From a virus, in the IMG/VR virus record IMGVR_UViG_3300044941_000207, positions 1-22,304 of that record: a stretch of 22,304 nucleotides of DNA. One strand, 5' to 3'. Below are positions 7,488 through 22,304 of the stretch, one piece after another. How positions within the stretch are numbered: the stretch's first letter is position 1; every line of letters starts with the position of its first letter. The notes below the pieces were generated by a model that was given only the letters and a program-made list of their open reading frames with translations, did not search any database and was not told the origin of the DNA. A program made the translations under genes and the position numbers.

Positions 7488-8385
7488 CTCGGGCCTCCAC
7501 GGGCAGGGTGAATTCCCAGTTGAGCGAGGGGCGCGGCTCAGCCAGAAGAGGGCCGAGCGGCAATACCTCGCGCCGGACGTAACCGCCGCCCACCGCGATC
7601 TGACAGAAGAACCAGGTCGACCCGCCCGCTGCCCCGAGCGCAGTGCCATCGGCCGCAGTGGGCACGAACACGCCCTGCTCGCTGCGCCCGCGCCGGGCGT
7701 TCACCTGCCCCACGCCGAGCGCCGGACCGTCAAGGCCCGCCAAGGACACCAGCCCGGCATGCATCGTCGTCACGCGCAACCGCACCGGGTTCCCGCCACC
7801 GCCGACCGGGGCGGTGATCCGCACCCGCGTCCAGTTGCTGGCAGGCGACACCGCAACCTCGACGTTGGCGTCGAGCGCCAGAACGGTGCGCAGAGAAAGA
7901 TCAACGTCCGCCCGACGCTGCACCCCGTCGCGCCCGACGATGCCCACACGCGCCTGCGAACGGCCAATCGGCAAGAGCGACAGAACCGCGGTCGCGCGAT
8001 CCCCGGCGGTCCATCCCGGCGGCGACAACGCCACCTCGGCGTAATGCTCGCCGGTCGATCCATCCTCGCGCAGCACGTCGCAAGGCACCGCGTCCGGCCC
8101 GATCGCGCCCCCCGCACTGCGGCTGGACCCGCTGAATGTCCAAGACGCCATGCTGTCCGATGCCCCGGCCAGAGACCATGCCTCGTCCCCCCACCACGCG
8201 CGCAGGGCATTGAACTCCGCATCGGTCAGACGCCCGGCCAGCGTCGGGCGGTCACGGCGGGTGGTGGTGATGCGACGGGCACGAACCGCAATCTCGAACT
8301 CGGTACGCCGCGCCATGTCGGCCAGTTCCAGCCGGTAGCCACGAGCAACCGGCACCGGCAGGCTGTCGGGCCAGCGCCGGGTCAC
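7480..8385 (-). CDS. Distal-tail-like minor tail protein (gpM position)
   Basis: The 301-aa protein begins with WPDSLPVPVARGYRLELADMARRTEFE and continues to LTDAEFNALRAWWG at about residue 60. This N-terminal pattern is typical of short minor tail proteins that link the tail tube end to the tip. The middle (about 75-220) is a separate beta-rich region (SMASWTFSGSS, then ASNWTRVRITAPVGGGGNPVRLRVTTM) that looks like a jelly-roll or carbohydrate-binding-like insert. The C-terminal part returns to the tail protein pattern (LLAEPRPSLNWEFTLPVE). The start is a GTG that overlaps the tape-measure stop as GTGA. No exact family is assigned; the role is from position and the N-terminal motif. Confidence 0.8.
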   Translation of the reverse strand: MTRRWPDSLPVPVARGYRLELADMARRTEFEIAVRARRITTTRRDRPTLAGRLTDAEFNALRAWWGDEAWSLAGASDSMASWTFSGSSRSAGGAIGPDAVPCDVLREDGSTGEHYAEVALSPPGWTAGDRATAVLSLLPIGRSQARVGIVGRDGVQRRADVDLSLRTVLALDANVEVAVSPASNWTRVRITAPVGGGGNPVRLRVTTMHAGLVSLAGLDGPALGVGQVNARRGRSEQGVFVPTAADGTALGAAGGSTWFFCQIAVGGGYVRREVLPLGPLLAEPRPSLNWEFTLPVEARDA

Positions 8386-11312
8386 AGTCCGGGCCTCCGC
8401 GGACCGAACATCTGCCGCAACGCCGCCGTCAGCTGGCCCCGCCCGCGCGCGGCATTTTCCGTCAGCGCGCCGTCCACCAGATCGACCAGCATGCGGATCA
8501 CGTCGTCGTCGCCGTCCGCGAACCGCTCCTCGGTCACCCGCTCCTGCCCCGTCGCGCCGTTGAGGACAACCTCGACCCGTGTGCCCCGCGCAGGCGGCGG
8601 CGTGCCAGCCGCCGAGCCGGTGCCGCGCGGCGCGTTGGCGCGCAACATGCTCGCCGGCAGCACGTCGAGCAGACCCTGCGGCACCCCGCCGCGCGCAAAG
8701 GCCGCAACGCGATTTGCGAAATCCGGCGACACACGGATCGAACCGGGCAGCGCGACAGCAAGGTGGCCCGAGGCGGCGCGCGCCAGCGGCAGCACCATTT
8801 CTCCGTCAGGCGCAAGCGCCCGCACACCCCCGCGACCCACCAGCGGCAGAATCGCCTCCGCCCCCGCCTCGCCCATCAGCCCGACGCCGCCCCGCATCGG
8901 GAACAGCGTCGGCCGATCCACCACGCTGTCCCGGTAAGCCCCAAGCCCCGACGAACCGCCCGCAACGACGCCACCTCGCGCAAACGGCAAGAGCCCAAAC
9001 AACCCGTCGATCAGCGGATTGATCATCGGCATGATGAACTGCTGCGTGATCCGCTCGGCGGCGATTCGGGCGATGGTCGCAATCACGAGGTCGCCGAAGG
9101 CCGCGAAGGCCTCGCCCATCGTCTTCGTGCCCTTGAGGAAATCGGCGATGATGTCCTCGAAGCCGTTCGACAGCGCATCGCGGATGCCTGCGTTCGCCGT
9201 CCCGAGCTCGGCAACCATCCCGGCCAGCGCCGCCCGCAGCTGCTCGGCCGACAGCTGACCCGCCGGACCCATCGCCTCGATCCGGGGAATCAGCTCGGCA
9301 AGCGCCGTCGCCGCCCGCCGCTTGGCAGCCTCCACCGCATCCGCCCCTTCGGCGGTCGTCATCAACCCCGCCCGCACCTGCTCGTGAATGCCGGCCACAG
9401 CGAGGGCCACATCCTCCATCGCTCCGCGCGCGCGCGCCTGCAGCTGATCCAGCCCGTCGCCGGAAGCGCGCCCACCGCCCCCGCCGCCGCCGCGCAGCCC
9501 GCGTTCAAGCGCAAGTGTAGCTTGTTCGATCTGCGCCGCCTCGCGCTCGGCCGCTATGTACCTTGCGCGACTTTCCCCCCATGCGCGCAGCGCGGCGTTG
9601 CGCTGACCATCGGGCAGCGTGGCAATCGCCGGCAGCGGATTCTCGCGCTCGAAACGCAGCGCCGCAAGTTGCGTCGCCCGGCCGACCGGATCGCCGACCG
9701 TTTGCGCCCTCACTCGCGCCTCGGCCAGCCGGTCCTGCGCCGTGCGCACCGCCCGCTCGGCGGCACCGACCGCCGCGGCCAGTTCGGCGGTCAGCCCCTG
9801 CGCCTCCAGTCGCGCCACCGCTATCGGCGAGGCAAGATCGACCCCGGACAGCCCTTGCGCGGCCTGCCATGCGTCGAGCAGCTGCTGCCGCAGGTCGTCG
9901 GCAACACCTTCAGCGCGCAGCGACGCATCGAGCGCCTCGCGCTCCGCCGCCGCGCGCGCAACGACCGCCTCGGCACTTTCGCGACCGTATCGTGCCTCAA
10001 TGGCCGCGATCTCGGCGCGGCGCTGAAAGGCCGCAATATCCGCTTGCACACGATCCGCCGCATCCAGCGCGGCAATCTCGGCGCGAACGGTCGCCACCGC
10101 CCGTGCGTAGGACGTGGCGGCGCGGCTCGCTTCCTCCCACCGCGCCCGCTGCTCAGGCGTCGCGTCGCGAGGCAGCGGGTTGGCCGCGGCAAACTCGGCC
10201 GCCGCCATCGCCACCGCCCGGTCGGACGCCGACAAACCGCGGGTGGCGAGCTCAAGCTGCGCCCGCGCCAGATCGTCGAGCTTGCCGCGCGTCCGGTCGG
10301 CGGCGTTGCCCAGCGCCTCGATTCCCTGCGCGCCTGCTTGACCCGTGATCCGGGCCATGTCGGCGGCGCCCCGCGTCAGTTCCGCCAGCGCAGCCCCGAG
10401 TTCGCGCGCCTGCGCCGGAGCCTCCGCCAGCGTGCCGCCGAACTGCTGCTGCAAAGTCGCCAGCGCTGCAGCCGCAGATTGCGCAGTCGCCGCGTCGTCG
10501 CCCGCCGCGCGCGCCTCCCGCAGCCTGTCGAACGCCTTAGCAAGCGACGCAGCACCGTTGATCGAAATTCGCCACCGCTCGGCAAGTTTCTGCAGGTCCA
10601 GTCCGACCAGATCAATCTCGAGCGAACCAGCGTCGTCCGGACCCGCCGTAGCCGCATCGCGCCTGACGCCGGGCAGCGCGGCCGCGTCCACGGCTGCGTC
10701 GAGCCTCGCGCTCGCGCGCGCACGCGCCAGTTCAAACTCCGCGCGCAGCGAGGCCTGCACCGCGTCGGCCAGACGGCCGTAGGCCGCGATCTGCCGCTCC
10801 ACAGGAACGCTCGCCGCCTCGCCGGCAGATTCCAGCGCCTTCACCGCGTCGGCAAGACCCTTAAGCCGATCCTCGGCAGTGCCGGCCTTCTCGCCCGCCG
10901 ATGTCAGCCACTGCACCATCGCGGCACCGACGGCGATGCTGCCGATGGTAATGAGACTGATCGGGTTCAGCATTCCAAGGAACGCCTGCCCCAGCGCCCG
11001 CACAGCGCCCCCCGCGCCGAGCGGGCCGAGCACCTGCGCGATCTGCGTGCCCTGCTGAACGGCCAGCGTCAGCGGGTTCTGCCCCGCCATCAGCATCTGG
11101 CCGATGTCGTTGAACTGCGCTGTCAGGTTGCCGACCGCGCCGGCCGCAAGCGTCGCGCCTTGCGCGACCTGTGCACCGCTTTGCTGGCCCATCTGGCCGA
11201 CGCTGCGCATCTGCGCGCCCGCTCCGCGAAGCCGATCCTCGACCTCACGGATCGCGCGCATCGCATCCGCGCTGTTCGCGCCGATCACCAGCTGCAGCGC
11301 CACGTCGCTCAT
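8382..11312 (-). CDS. Tail tape measure protein (lambda gpH type)
   Basis: The 976-aa protein sets tail length and is threaded inside the tail tube. The N-terminal part contains FNDIGQMLMAGQNPLTLAVQQ followed by GTQIAQVLGPLGA, a lambda-family tape measure signature. A hydrophobic glycine-rich segment follows at about 105-140. Long alanine/arginine/glutamate-rich helical and coiled-coil repeats fill the middle. An unusual glycine run sits near residue 610. The lambda tape-measure C-terminal domain is visible (IADFLKGTKTMGEAFAAFGD, then IATIARIAAERITQQFIMPM). At the common rule of about 0.15 nm per residue, a tail near 150 nm is expected. The ATG overlaps the end of the T frame as ATGA. Confidence 0.95.
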   Translation of the reverse strand: MSDVALQLVIGANSADAMRAIREVEDRLRGAGAQMRSVGQMGQQSGAQVAQGATLAAGAVGNLTAQFNDIGQMLMAGQNPLTLAVQQGTQIAQVLGPLGAGGAVRALGQAFLGMLNPISLITIGSIAVGAAMVQWLTSAGEKAGTAEDRLKGLADAVKALESAGEAASVPVERQIAAYGRLADAVQASLRAEFELARARASARLDAAVDAAALPGVRRDAATAGPDDAGSLEIDLVGLDLQKLAERWRISINGAASLAKAFDRLREARAAGDDAATAQSAAAALATLQQQFGGTLAEAPAQARELGAALAELTRGAADMARITGQAGAQGIEALGNAADRTRGKLDDLARAQLELATRGLSASDRAVAMAAAEFAAANPLPRDATPEQRARWEEASRAATSYARAVATVRAEIAALDAADRVQADIAAFQRRAEIAAIEARYGRESAEAVVARAAAEREALDASLRAEGVADDLRQQLLDAWQAAQGLSGVDLASPIAVARLEAQGLTAELAAAVGAAERAVRTAQDRLAEARVRAQTVGDPVGRATQLAALRFERENPLPAIATLPDGQRNAALRAWGESRARYIAAEREAAQIEQATLALERGLRGGGGGGGRASGDGLDQLQARARGAMEDVALAVAGIHEQVRAGLMTTAEGADAVEAAKRRAATALAELIPRIEAMGPAGQLSAEQLRAALAGMVAELGTANAGIRDALSNGFEDIIADFLKGTKTMGEAFAAFGDLVIATIARIAAERITQQFIMPMINPLIDGLFGLLPFARGGVVAGGSSGLGAYRDSVVDRPTLFPMRGGVGLMGEAGAEAILPLVGRGGVRALAPDGEMVLPLARAASGHLAVALPGSIRVSPDFANRVAAFARGGVPQGLLDVLPASMLRANAPRGTGSAAGTPPPARGTRVEVVLNGATGQERVTEERFADGDDDVIRMLVDLVDGALTENAARGRGQLTAALRQMFGPRRPGL

Positions 11313-11575
11313 GCGTCGTCCTCTTTGTCGTATCCCATCAGCCAGTCGCGGCGGTCGTCTTCCGAGCCGCCTTCGTCCAGAGCCTCAAGAGCTGCCTCGA
11401 ACGTGTCGCGATCCGCCCAGACGGCGGTGCGAATTGCGCTCATCAACCGCGCGACAGCCTGCGCCTCGACGCGGGCGTGACCGACCATCAGCACCCGCAG
11501 CTGCGCCCCGGTCAGGGCCAGCACCTCGCTCAGAGCGTGTCCGCGTCCGACGAGCCAGGCGACGATTTCTCCCCA
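11309..11575 (-). CDS. T-like chaperone domain, probably made as a G-T fusion by -1 frameshift
   Basis: This frame lies one base back from the gpG-like gene and encodes about 88 residues. It begins PWGEIVAWLVGRG, continues HALSEVLALTGAQLRVLMVGHARVEAQA and ends in an acidic tail (DDRRDWLMGYDKEDDA). The 'LALTxAQLRVLM' helix resembles small tail assembly chaperones. The frame has no ATG or GTG, and its only TTG is at 11755, well before the coding-like part. Independent initiation is therefore unlikely. In lambda-type phages the equivalent T region is reached by ribosomal slippage from G. Slippage near the G run at 11571-11574 would give a fusion of about 213 aa. No canonical X-XXY-YYZ heptamer is in phase, so the exact slip site is inferred. 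The frame ends in an ATGA overlap with the tape measure. Confidence 0.7.
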   Translation of the reverse strand, partial: WGEIVAWLVGRGHALSEVLALTGAQLRVLMVGHARVEAQAVARLMSAIRTAVWADRDTFEAALEALDEGGSEDDRRDWLMGYDKEDDA

Positions 11576-11949
11576 CGGCGGGCCGCTGCCCCGGCGGGCG
11601 GTTCCGCGCCGCTCGCCAGCGCCGCCACCAGCGGCCCCGCGGTGAAATCCGCTACCGCCCGAACCAGCGCAAAACTCGCCCGGATCGCTTCCGCCGCGTC
11701 CGCCTCGACAATCGCCGCGCGCGGAATACCGGTCGCAAGCGCGAAGTCGTCCCAAAGATCGCCGCTGGCAACCTCAAGCGCGTCAATCACATCCTCGGCG
11801 TTCAGCGCGGCGCCGAACCGCCCCGCAAACCGCCGCGCGGCGGCGTAACGACCCAGCGTCAGCGCCGCAAGCGGATACGCCTGCCCGCCGAGATGGATCA
11901 CGCCGGGCGGCGGCGGCACAAGCGCGTCAAGATCATCAGTACCGTTCAT
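11530..11949 (-). CDS. Tail assembly chaperone (lambda gpG-like), 139 aa
   Basis: The protein of 139 residues lies between the tail tube and tape measure genes. This is the position of lambda gpG (140 aa), which coats the tape measure and recruits tube subunits. It begins MNGTDDLDALVPPPPGVIHL. A globular helical part follows (LTLGRYAAARRFAGRFGAAL, then VIDALEVASGDLWDDFALAT). The end is low-complexity, and the last 14 residues (GEKSSPGSSDADTL) look like read-through of a frame that normally shifts. The start ATG at 11949 lies 11 nt after the tail tube stop, with only a weak upstream GGGATCC. A longer start at 12177 would overlap the tail tube gene for more than 200 nt and is rejected. Confidence 0.85.
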   Translation of the reverse strand: MNGTDDLDALVPPPPGVIHLGGQAYPLAALTLGRYAAARRFAGRFGAALNAEDVIDALEVASGDLWDDFALATGIPRAAIVEADAAEAIRASFALVRAVADFTAGPLVAALASGAEPPAGAAARRGEKSSPGSSDADTL

Positions 11950-11960
11950 GCCGGGATCCC

Positions 11961-12950
11961 TTACGACACGATGATCCGCATGAAATTGTCGTTCGGGTCG
12001 TCCTTGTCGAGGATCAGCCCGAAGTTGACGTTCACCCGACGGAAACCGTTGTCGTCCAGGCCCTGCAACTCCTGCCGCTGCAGGCGACGAGCGAACACCG
12101 CAATCCGGTTGCCGTTCGTGGTGCCCAGCGTCCAGCCGAACGTCGTCTCGACCGAGTTGTTCATCTCGGTGCGCCACGTGGCCTCCTGCGCGGCGGTCAG
12201 TTCCATCATCATCTCGCCTTTTGGCTCACGGGCAGTGATGACCACCTTCTCGCCGCCGATGATCGGATCGTAGGTCAGATTGTCGCCCATATCGAGACTG
12301 AAGCCCTTCGCAGGATAGGACGTGCCGCCGCTGATCGTCCCGCCGGCGTAGGTGCAGCCGAGCCGCACCTGACTGGCCGTGGCCTCGTACGGCATCAGCG
12401 GCGTCTTCCATGCAGCGAAGGGGTTCGCCGGGCCGCCCCAGGCAGCCTCGGTGCCATTGGTGTCGTAGCCGCGAAACCGAAAGCGCGCGTAAGGAACCTG
12501 GTACGCGTTGAAGAAAAACTGGACCGTCCCGCGCGCGCCACGAGACACGTAGACGTGCCCGTCCTCCCAGTAGCGGATCGTCAGACTCTCGCCCGGATCG
12601 GACACCGGCGTGTACTCGACGCGGGACGAAGGCGTGATCGCCTCGGCGAACTGACACGCGCGCAGCAGCGTCCCCCAAGGCGGCGCAACGCCCTGCGCGC
12701 CCGAGGGTCCAAGTTCGACCTCGAACTCGATCTCCTGCACGCGCGGTCCGGGAATCTCGTCCGAAGCGCCGAGAAACCGCAGGTAGAGATCGCGCGGCTC
12801 GTTCATCCGCTCGATCCGGTGCCGCGGGCGATTGCGCGGCAGAATCTGCAGCGCATCCGCCCAGCTCCACCCCGGATCGGTCGGCGGACCGGAGCCGTAG
12901 CTCGGCTCGATAACCGCCATGAGAGCGATGCGGCGGGCAAGACGGGTCAT
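11961..12950 (-). CDS. Tail tube protein (major tail protein)
   Basis: The 329-aa protein precedes the G/GT chaperones and the tape measure, where the tube subunit sits in siphoviruses. It is beta-rich, with segments such as EIEFEVELGPSG, RFRFRGYDTNG, GFSLDMGDNLTYDPIIGGEKVVITAREPKGEMMMELTAAQ (read in two parts) and a C-terminal VNVNFGLILDKDDPNDNFMRI. The 'treat as a deviation from a reference value' style of the central part is typical of phage tube subunits. It is longer than lambda gpV (246 aa); about 90 N-terminal residues may be an extra domain or handle. The ATG at 12950 has GGAG with a 7-nt spacer. An internal ATG at 12920 lacks a ribosome-binding site. Confidence 0.85.
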   Translation of the reverse strand: MTRLARRIALMAVIEPSYGSGPPTDPGWSWADALQILPRNRPRHRIERMNEPRDLYLRFLGASDEIPGPRVQEIEFEVELGPSGAQGVAPPWGTLLRACQFAEAITPSSRVEYTPVSDPGESLTIRYWEDGHVYVSRGARGTVQFFFNAYQVPYARFRFRGYDTNGTEAAWGGPANPFAAWKTPLMPYEATASQVRLGCTYAGGTISGGTSYPAKGFSLDMGDNLTYDPIIGGEKVVITAREPKGEMMMELTAAQEATWRTEMNNSVETTFGWTLGTTNGNRIAVFARRLQRQELQGLDDNGFRRVNVNFGLILDKDDPNDNFMRIIVS

Positions 12951-21449: not shown

Positions 21450-22193
21450 TCAGTCCCCGATCGGCAAATTGAGCTGGGCCAGTGTCATCGTAACGTCGCC
21501 CTTGCGCACCCGGCGCTGCCGCAAGTCCGACCGATCCTGTGCGGCTTCGACTGCCGCCGCCGATGCGCCGTCGCCGGCCGGCAGCGCCCGGTAGCGGTCA
21601 TAGATGGCGGCGATGATCCTCCGGTTGTCCTGGCTCCGACCGGATTCCTCCCAGAGCCCGTCGAACCACGCGCGATAGAACTCCGCCACCGCGTCGTCCA
21701 CGTCGATGTCGAACTGCTCGGTCCGCAAGTTCTTGTTCAGGTTCATCGACGACCGGAACACCGCCCGCCGCCCCGGACCACCGTCGACGATGATCACCTT
21801 CGCATGCACCGACAGGCACCGGAACGCATCCACACCCAGAATCTCGATCAGCGGCCCCGCAAACTGCGGCGATTTCTCGAAGGTGGCCCGGTCAAGCAGA
21901 AACCGGATGTCCGTAATGCGCCCGTCCACGCGGATCGCGCGTGTCCGTTCGACATCGTAGATGCCGGTGGTCCAGGTCGAGACCCGGACCGCGGCAGGCC
22001 CGAGCTGATCGACCATGTGCTCAAGCGCGTCGATCGCCGAAAACTGCCCGGCCGTGACGCCCGTCATGCGCATGCCCGGCGGCAGCGGTCCAATCGTCTC
22101 GGCCGCGCACTCAAGGCGGCTGACGACCCGCGCCACAGTCTTCCCGAGGTAGCGCAGTGCCCGCGGCCGCTGGTTGGACCCATCGCCCTTCAT
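21450..22193 (-). CDS. Phospholipase D-like (single HKD motif) phosphodiesterase, probably a nuclease
   Basis: The 247-aa protein carries one complete PLD-superfamily motif: His130 and Lys132 in SVHAKVIIVDGG, Asp137 at the right distance (HxK-x4-D), and Asn151 in the following SSMNLN. Enzymes with one motif usually form dimers to build the active site and include nucleases such as the Nuc/BfiI type. The segment before it (RVDGRITDIRFLLDR) and the one after (RTEQFDIDVDDAVAEFYRAWFDGLWEES) fit the PLD fold. There is no signal peptide, so it should be cytoplasmic. It ends 4 nt before the small terminase start, so both are probably made together. I chose the ATG at 22193 because GAGGTG lies 6 nt upstream; an ATG at 22286 has no ribosome-binding site and would translate through a repeat array. 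Confidence 0.8.
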   Translation of the reverse strand: MKGDGSNQRPRALRYLGKTVARVVSRLECAAETIGPLPPGMRMTGVTAGQFSAIDALEHMVDQLGPAAVRVSTWTTGIYDVERTRAIRVDGRITDIRFLLDRATFEKSPQFAGPLIEILGVDAFRCLSVHAKVIIVDGGPGRRAVFRSSMNLNKNLRTEQFDIDVDDAVAEFYRAWFDGLWEESGRSQDNRRIIAAIYDRYRALPAGDGASAAAVEAAQDRSDLRQRRVRKGDVTMTLAQLNLPIGD

Positions 22194-22216
22194 GACGTGC
22201 ACCTCAGCCCGATCCT

Positions 22217-22259
22217 TGCGCACCTGCGCACCCGACCTGCGCACCCGACCTGCGCACCC
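22217..22259. repeat. Tandem 13-nt repeats with four TGCGCA palindromes upstream of the operon's first visible gene
   Basis: The plus strand holds two exact copies of TGCGCACCCGACC (22225-22237, 22238-22250) and a third partial copy (22251-22259). A further TGCGCACC stands just before them (22217). TGCGCA is its own reverse complement, giving four evenly placed palindromic cores spaced 8, 13 and 13 nt apart. The array is directly upstream of the PLD gene, two genes ahead of the terminase. It could be a protein-binding site or a simple slippage-derived repeat. Confidence 0.7.
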
Positions 22260-22304
22260 AAGATTCCGTTCTGTCGCTAGGAACATAACGCGGCGCGAAC
22301 AACC

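Follow-up and report, generated by a model that had tools for sequence, protein, structure and literature searches.

A stretch of viral DNA 22,304 nucleotides long (IMG/VR record IMGVR_UViG_3300044941_000207, positions 1 to 22,304; hereafter the window) carries two overlapping reading frames between its tail tube and tape measure genes, as expected of a G/GT tail assembly chaperone frameshift. One is a 139-residue gpG-like frame and the other, the T frame, is open one base back; both had been recognised in a preliminary description made from the letters alone, and both were recovered here (Table 1). Residues 2–138 of gpG match phrog_1442, ‘tail assembly chaperone’ (E=4.9e-8), which assigns it to a known chaperone family, and the Pfam model DUF6631 was matched by relatives only and not by the window gpG. 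An AlphaFold2 model of gpG (mean predicted local distance difference test score, pLDDT, of 81.6) found its best viral-structure match in a protein of Stenotrophomonas phage DLP_5 (E=1.9e-3), and the fused protein of one relative also matches DLP_5, at a gene recorded there as a tail assembly chaperone. A fold search of the PDB with gpG gave no credible match. For the T region, no Pfam or NCBIfam model matched, and PHROGs matched weakly.

The T frame had been said to contain no ATG or GTG. As written this does not stand, as GTG occurs at 11524 and 11494 and ATG at 11488, 11443 and 11338; it is accurate upstream of the conserved start of the T domain, where TTG at 11755 is, as had been pointed out, the sole ATG, GTG or TTG. 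We counted substitutions by T-codon position in pairs of relatives, taking p values from independent pairs only. Upstream of the slip position discussed below, substitutions were distributed 40/17/8, which is the wobble pattern of gpG (p=5e-5), and from a conserved tryptophan (Trp) onward they were distributed 30/14/65, which is the wobble pattern of T (p=5e-6). The linker between slip and Trp was unphased (53/50/54, p=0.48). The T frame is under selection and has no start of its own before its conserved domain, and by sequence comparison the T frame is coding from the Trp onward.

When genomes and viral contigs were searched with profiles and patterns, about 20 loci came to light in addition to L002/L003, which are closely related to the window, and L004/L015 from Rubellimicrobium thermophilum; all share the two-frame layout. 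Following one group of loci brought in the Pseudomonas phages D3112, MP22 and MP29; for MP22 and MP29, gpG and the fused product are each annotated in the record. Throughout the family, T sits one frame back (−1), between gpG and the tape measure gene, and its homology begins at an invariant Trp; a scan that required neither Trp nor GGG turned up only loci having them. Searches of sequenced phages with the window gpG or the T consensus returned no match; sequenced phages were matched only by the D3112-like T and by a relative’s fused protein. Some of these loci have peculiarities of their own. The gpG of L002/L003 (near 2985) has no ATG; a GTG that overlaps the tail tube stop (GTGA) is the apparent start of its frame. 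In Pseudomonas phage pAN (L057, 1519–2060), which has T_TTT_TTC, the T frame starts WGFVVQRLIGAGH and is unannotated, and in D3112 (L055) and PA1/KOR/2010 (L058), both at 1585–1713, the T region is recorded as a separate short open reading frame (ORF) and not as a frameshift product.

Across the family, gpG carries a DFF or GFF motif 14–27 codons upstream of the Trp. For 14 of the 21 non-redundant members (17 of 25 rows), D3112 and MP22 among them, this motif is encoded as T_TTT_TTC or T_TTT_TTT. T TTT TTC has been published as the slip site of PaMx73 (PMC4378225), and the MP22 record marks TTTTTTC as its slippery sequence. At the same gpG codon position L049 has T_TTT_TTG, L004 has T_TTT_TCG, and the window, L002, L003 and L044 have T_TTC_AC[CG] (T_TTC_ACG in L044). 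Next to this site, around 9590–9602, L044 also has an in-phase G_GGG_GGG heptamer. In L040, L045 and L052 a T-frame stop immediately precedes the heptamer, which rules out an earlier shift; in L020/L059, where the heptamer is C_CCT_TTC and lies six codons further on, gpG stops 3 codons past the Trp codon, so that the shift cannot be much later. These two sets of stops confine the shift in this family to the interval from the DFF position to the Trp. The loci without a full heptamer (the window, L002, L003, L004 and L044) form one clade with support of 100/99, and L020/L059 and L049 are placed around it in the tree.

In the window the corresponding gpG motif is V-A-D-F-T, encoded by GAT TTC ACC, which lacks the second slippery codon and leaves T_TTC. 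Our scan of the overlap agreed with the preliminary description that it holds no in-phase X_XXY_YYZ heptamer, the canonical −1 site. What that description overlooked were the in-phase Z_ZZN tetramers T_TTT, T_TTC and G_GGG, at P codons 11673, 11646 and 11637. When all Z_ZZN tetramers were measured in E. coli with a pseudoknot supplied, frameshifting followed the order A_AA.G >> U_UU.C > U_UU.U > C_CC.U = C_CC.C > A_AA.A, and G_GG.N tetramers were barely or not shift-prone (PMC4066793). T_TTC at 11647–11644 belongs to the shift-prone kind (A_AAG, U_UUY, C_CCY), and because of this ranking and the relatives it is the best motif of a known type in the interval and lies at the homologous position. 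T_TTT at 11674–11671 was rejected, since L002 has TCG TTC at the same codon pair and the tetramer is not conserved. Transcriptional slippage was likewise set aside, as the overlap has no long homopolymer.

Downstream structure and upstream Shine-Dalgarno (SD)-like pairing are the usual stimulators of bacterial frameshifting, and in the family averages both lie in the right register. Within ±240 nucleotides of the slip, the mean fold energy of the family reaches its minimum exactly at slip+6 (−22.8 versus about −16.5), with values of −12.9 to −19.3 elsewhere, and the mean for the clade of the window at slip+6 is −29.0. Mean anti-SD pairing of the family peaks 6–8 nucleotides upstream of the slip (−6.5 versus about −2.5). 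These registers are family-wide, and the fold of the window downstream of the slip is within the most stable 1.9% of local folding windows.

Together, the frame layout, the codon-phased substitutions and the homologous position of T_TTC make it likely that the window uses an ordinary programmed −1 frameshift of the G/GT type, on the reduced slip site U_UUC, to make gpGT. It is from these comparisons that we infer the slippage itself, U_UUC as the codon used, and its efficiency. In the proposed mechanism, tRNA-Phe would read UUC at 11646–11644 and then slip one base back to UUU (the last base of GAU plus UU), with which it also pairs. Reading in the T frame would resume CAC CGC GGG ... and pass via the variable linker into the T domain from Trp 11575, giving a predicted junction at which ...AVADF is followed by HRGAAGG.... 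The product, gpGT, would be a minority fusion protein of 213 residues, encoded by the chaperone gene that separates the tail tube and tape measure genes. The downstream hairpin and the upstream SD-like stretch would probably help the slip. In the lineage of the window, the usual seven-base slippery sequence seems to be lost and only four bases, U_UUC, retained; they may be a remnant of the U_UUU_UUC heptamer of its relatives once DFF changed to DFT.

Table 1. Features of the G/GT locus and its neighbours in the window
Feature	Position	Strand	Remarks
Tail tube protein (Phage_tube_2, E=2.7e-9)	11961..12950	minus	Upstream neighbour of gpG
gpG-like tail assembly chaperone	11949-11530	minus	139 residues, 0 frame; phrog_1442 match
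T frame, −1 relative to G	11309..11773	minus	Open from 11773; stop at 11311-11309
Shine-Dalgarno-like stretch TCGGGCGGTA	11662-11653	minus	−7.2 kcal/mol with anti-SD; register of family peak
Slip tetramer T_TTC, best supported	11647-11644	minus	Last base of GAT plus TTC; gpG codon 102, Phe
T-frame part of predicted gpGT, 111 residues: HRGAAGGGAGERRG...EDDA	11309..11644	minus	Would be entered after slippage
Predicted hairpin just downstream of slip (candidate stimulator)	11615..11640	minus	RNA folding
Alternative in-phase tetramer G_GGG	11638-11635	minus	Three codons downstream of T_TTC
Conserved Trp codon opening T domain	11573..11575	minus	T-GGG run of the preliminary description; invariant W in relatives
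GTG in T frame, possible restart codon	11522..11524	minus	5 bases past gpG stop
Tail tape measure protein (TMP_2)	8382..11312	minus	Downstream of T; ATG overlaps T-frame stop (11311-11309)

Several points weigh against a slip on U_UUC. Tetramers shift poorly without strong stimulators (PMC4066793), and the fold of the window taken alone is no better than that of synonymous shuffles (p=0.25), so that its stability largely follows from protein and codon usage. The SD-like stretch of L044 is weak. The GAT codon is no evidence by itself, as window genes generally favour GAT before TTC (6 versus 2), and this codon choice was dropped from the argument. Finally, the G_GGG tetramer at 11638–11635 is also kept, in phase, in all five reduced-site loci, and the longer G_GGG_GGG is present in L044.

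This last point would favour a −1 shift on G_GGG, in which tRNA-Gly re-pairs from GGG to GGG and the junction peptide would be AVADFTAGAAGGGAGER as opposed to AVADFHR for T_TTC. We consider such a shift unlikely. Its re-pairing would be perfect, in L044 the heptamer is complete, and the tetramer, kept in the reduced-site loci, is absent from L049; yet G_GG.N tetramers shifted barely or not at all in E. coli (PMC4066793), the GGG lies inside the predicted hairpin, and the structure peak of the family is in register with the TTT/TTC site. The G_GGG position is, moreover, not homologous to the heptamer of the relatives.

It is improbable that T is instead made separately, by restart at GTG 11524 after the gpG stop (11532–11530), which would yield a 71-residue T without its N-terminal part. 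A GTG or ATG at T codon +17/+18 after the Trp is found in 8 of 8 members of the wider clade of the window (including L004, L044, L049, L020 and L059), and in L004 and L044 the start codon overlaps the gpG stop as TGATG. However, conservation in the T domain is highest in the codons upstream of GTG 11524 (WGEIVAWLVGRGH), and these carry the T-frame wobble bias, both in the family counts given above and in three independent pairs from the clade (1/3/12); being conserved and T-phased, they are translated in the T frame. Most relatives with TTTTTTC have no start codon at +17/+18. Restart may add an extra short T product and cannot replace the fusion.

Slippage on T-GGG-GAG-AAA (11575–11566), which the preliminary description had put forward as its best candidate and which would give the junction RRG(E)EIVAW, is very improbable. 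This run lies about 70 bases, or 24 codons, downstream of T_TTC. MP22 is the one family member that lacks T-GGG, also when the search did not demand it; T-GGG is, however, accounted for by the invariant Trp of the T domain and the small residue after it (a Gly/Ala codon), the run being the W-G start of that domain. Re-pairing from GGG to UGG and from GAG to GGA would be poor. When the overlap was aligned across relatives, a check which that description had proposed, no conserved slip element emerged at this run: L002/L003 have AGA for AAA, L004 has GCG-AGT for GAG-AAA, and GGG is followed by CAG, CCG or CCA in L050, L024 and L048. A U_UUN motif lies upstream in all members but L020 and L059, which have C_CCT_TTC, and T-frame selection is already in force from the Trp onward. 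The suggestion of a non-standard site suited to a GC-rich host is unneeded, as GC-rich relatives have T_TTT_TTC. Of the preliminary reading, the programmed −1 shift that yields gpG and gpGT with no canonical heptamer is supported, whereas its account of where the slip lies and what it consists of is not. A single-base sequencing error, or a decayed overlap of a G and T that were once one frame, is scarcely credible even for a single window from an unannotated virus record: over 20 independent loci, among them contigs, isolate genomes and sequenced phages, share this −1 layout, which excludes the error.

Like the window as interpreted here, lambda places G/GT between tail tube and tape measure, makes gpG and a minor gpG-T fusion, and uses the −1 frame. 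Its slip site is the heptamer G_GGA_AAG, whereas the window has no heptamer; the sequence families differ, and the window slip would lie about 38 codons before the gpG stop. The Casadabanvirus phages D3112, MP22, MP29 and PaMx73 share with the window the gpG family (DUF6631/phrog_1442), the W-initial T domain, the −1 frame and, for the proposed slip, the same gpG motif; theirs is T_TTT_TTC (GFF) and that of the window T_TTC_ACC (DFT). They also differ in that the head genes of the window are lambda-like (terminase gpA, lambda portal, S49 peptidase, gpD and capsid E). In the bacterial insertion sequences of the IS1 and IS3 families, which shift on Z_ZZN tetramers, a single A-site tRNA, as proposed here, re-pairs on U_UUC with the help of stimulators (PMC4066793), although that signal serves a transposase and not a tail chaperone. 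In the literature searched, we found no tail-chaperone case with a U_UUC tetramer. The chaperones of RcapMu, RcWaterboi and S-CBS1 follow a similar tail tube gene in a −1 layout, but their T region is unrelated (DUF1799 in RcapMu) and a canonical GGGAAAC or AAAAAAC lies right before the gpG stop. The tail tube relatives L007 and L009–L014, from Rhodobacter, Synechococcus and Vibrio phages, have another chaperone type; most have one of these two canonical heptamers directly before the gpG stop, and their records annotate no fusion.

Upstream of gpG, the window also encodes tail terminator and head-tail attachment proteins. Residues 668–832 of the tape measure protein score 61 bits against the RcGTA tape-measure model, short of its cut-off of 220 bits. 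A 905-residue ORF (8763–11480, plus strand) runs antisense to tape measure and T and is probably a by-product of GC-rich coding. Near the terminase genes, a 278-residue ORF (21450–22286, minus strand) has a stretch, HAKVIIVDGG...SMNLNKN, that resembles phospholipase D motifs, and a Pfam search with it gave no match.

The recoding proposed here is of a known kind; its interest is in the reduced site and in the natural series of slip sites within one gene family. Sites like that of the window escape tools limited to XXXYYYZ or to the start of T homology, and the slip can precede the recognisable T domain by tens of codons. According to the authors of PRFect, 22 SEA-PHAGES genomes carry an annotated frameshift whose overlap holds no motif (PMC10885494). 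More speculatively, a clade of alphaproteobacterial phages may have moved its G/GT shift off the heptamer, one branch keeping a bare U_UUC, a neighbour relocating to C_CCU_UUC, and start codons gained near the gpG stop possibly giving a separate T by restart. We hold this to be a tentative idea; if true, it would show a recoding signal being dismantled and rebuilt. The graded natural series TTTTTTC, TTTTTTG, TTTTTCG, TTTCACC and CCCTTTC offers a test bed for the evolution of a −1 signal whose product is still required.

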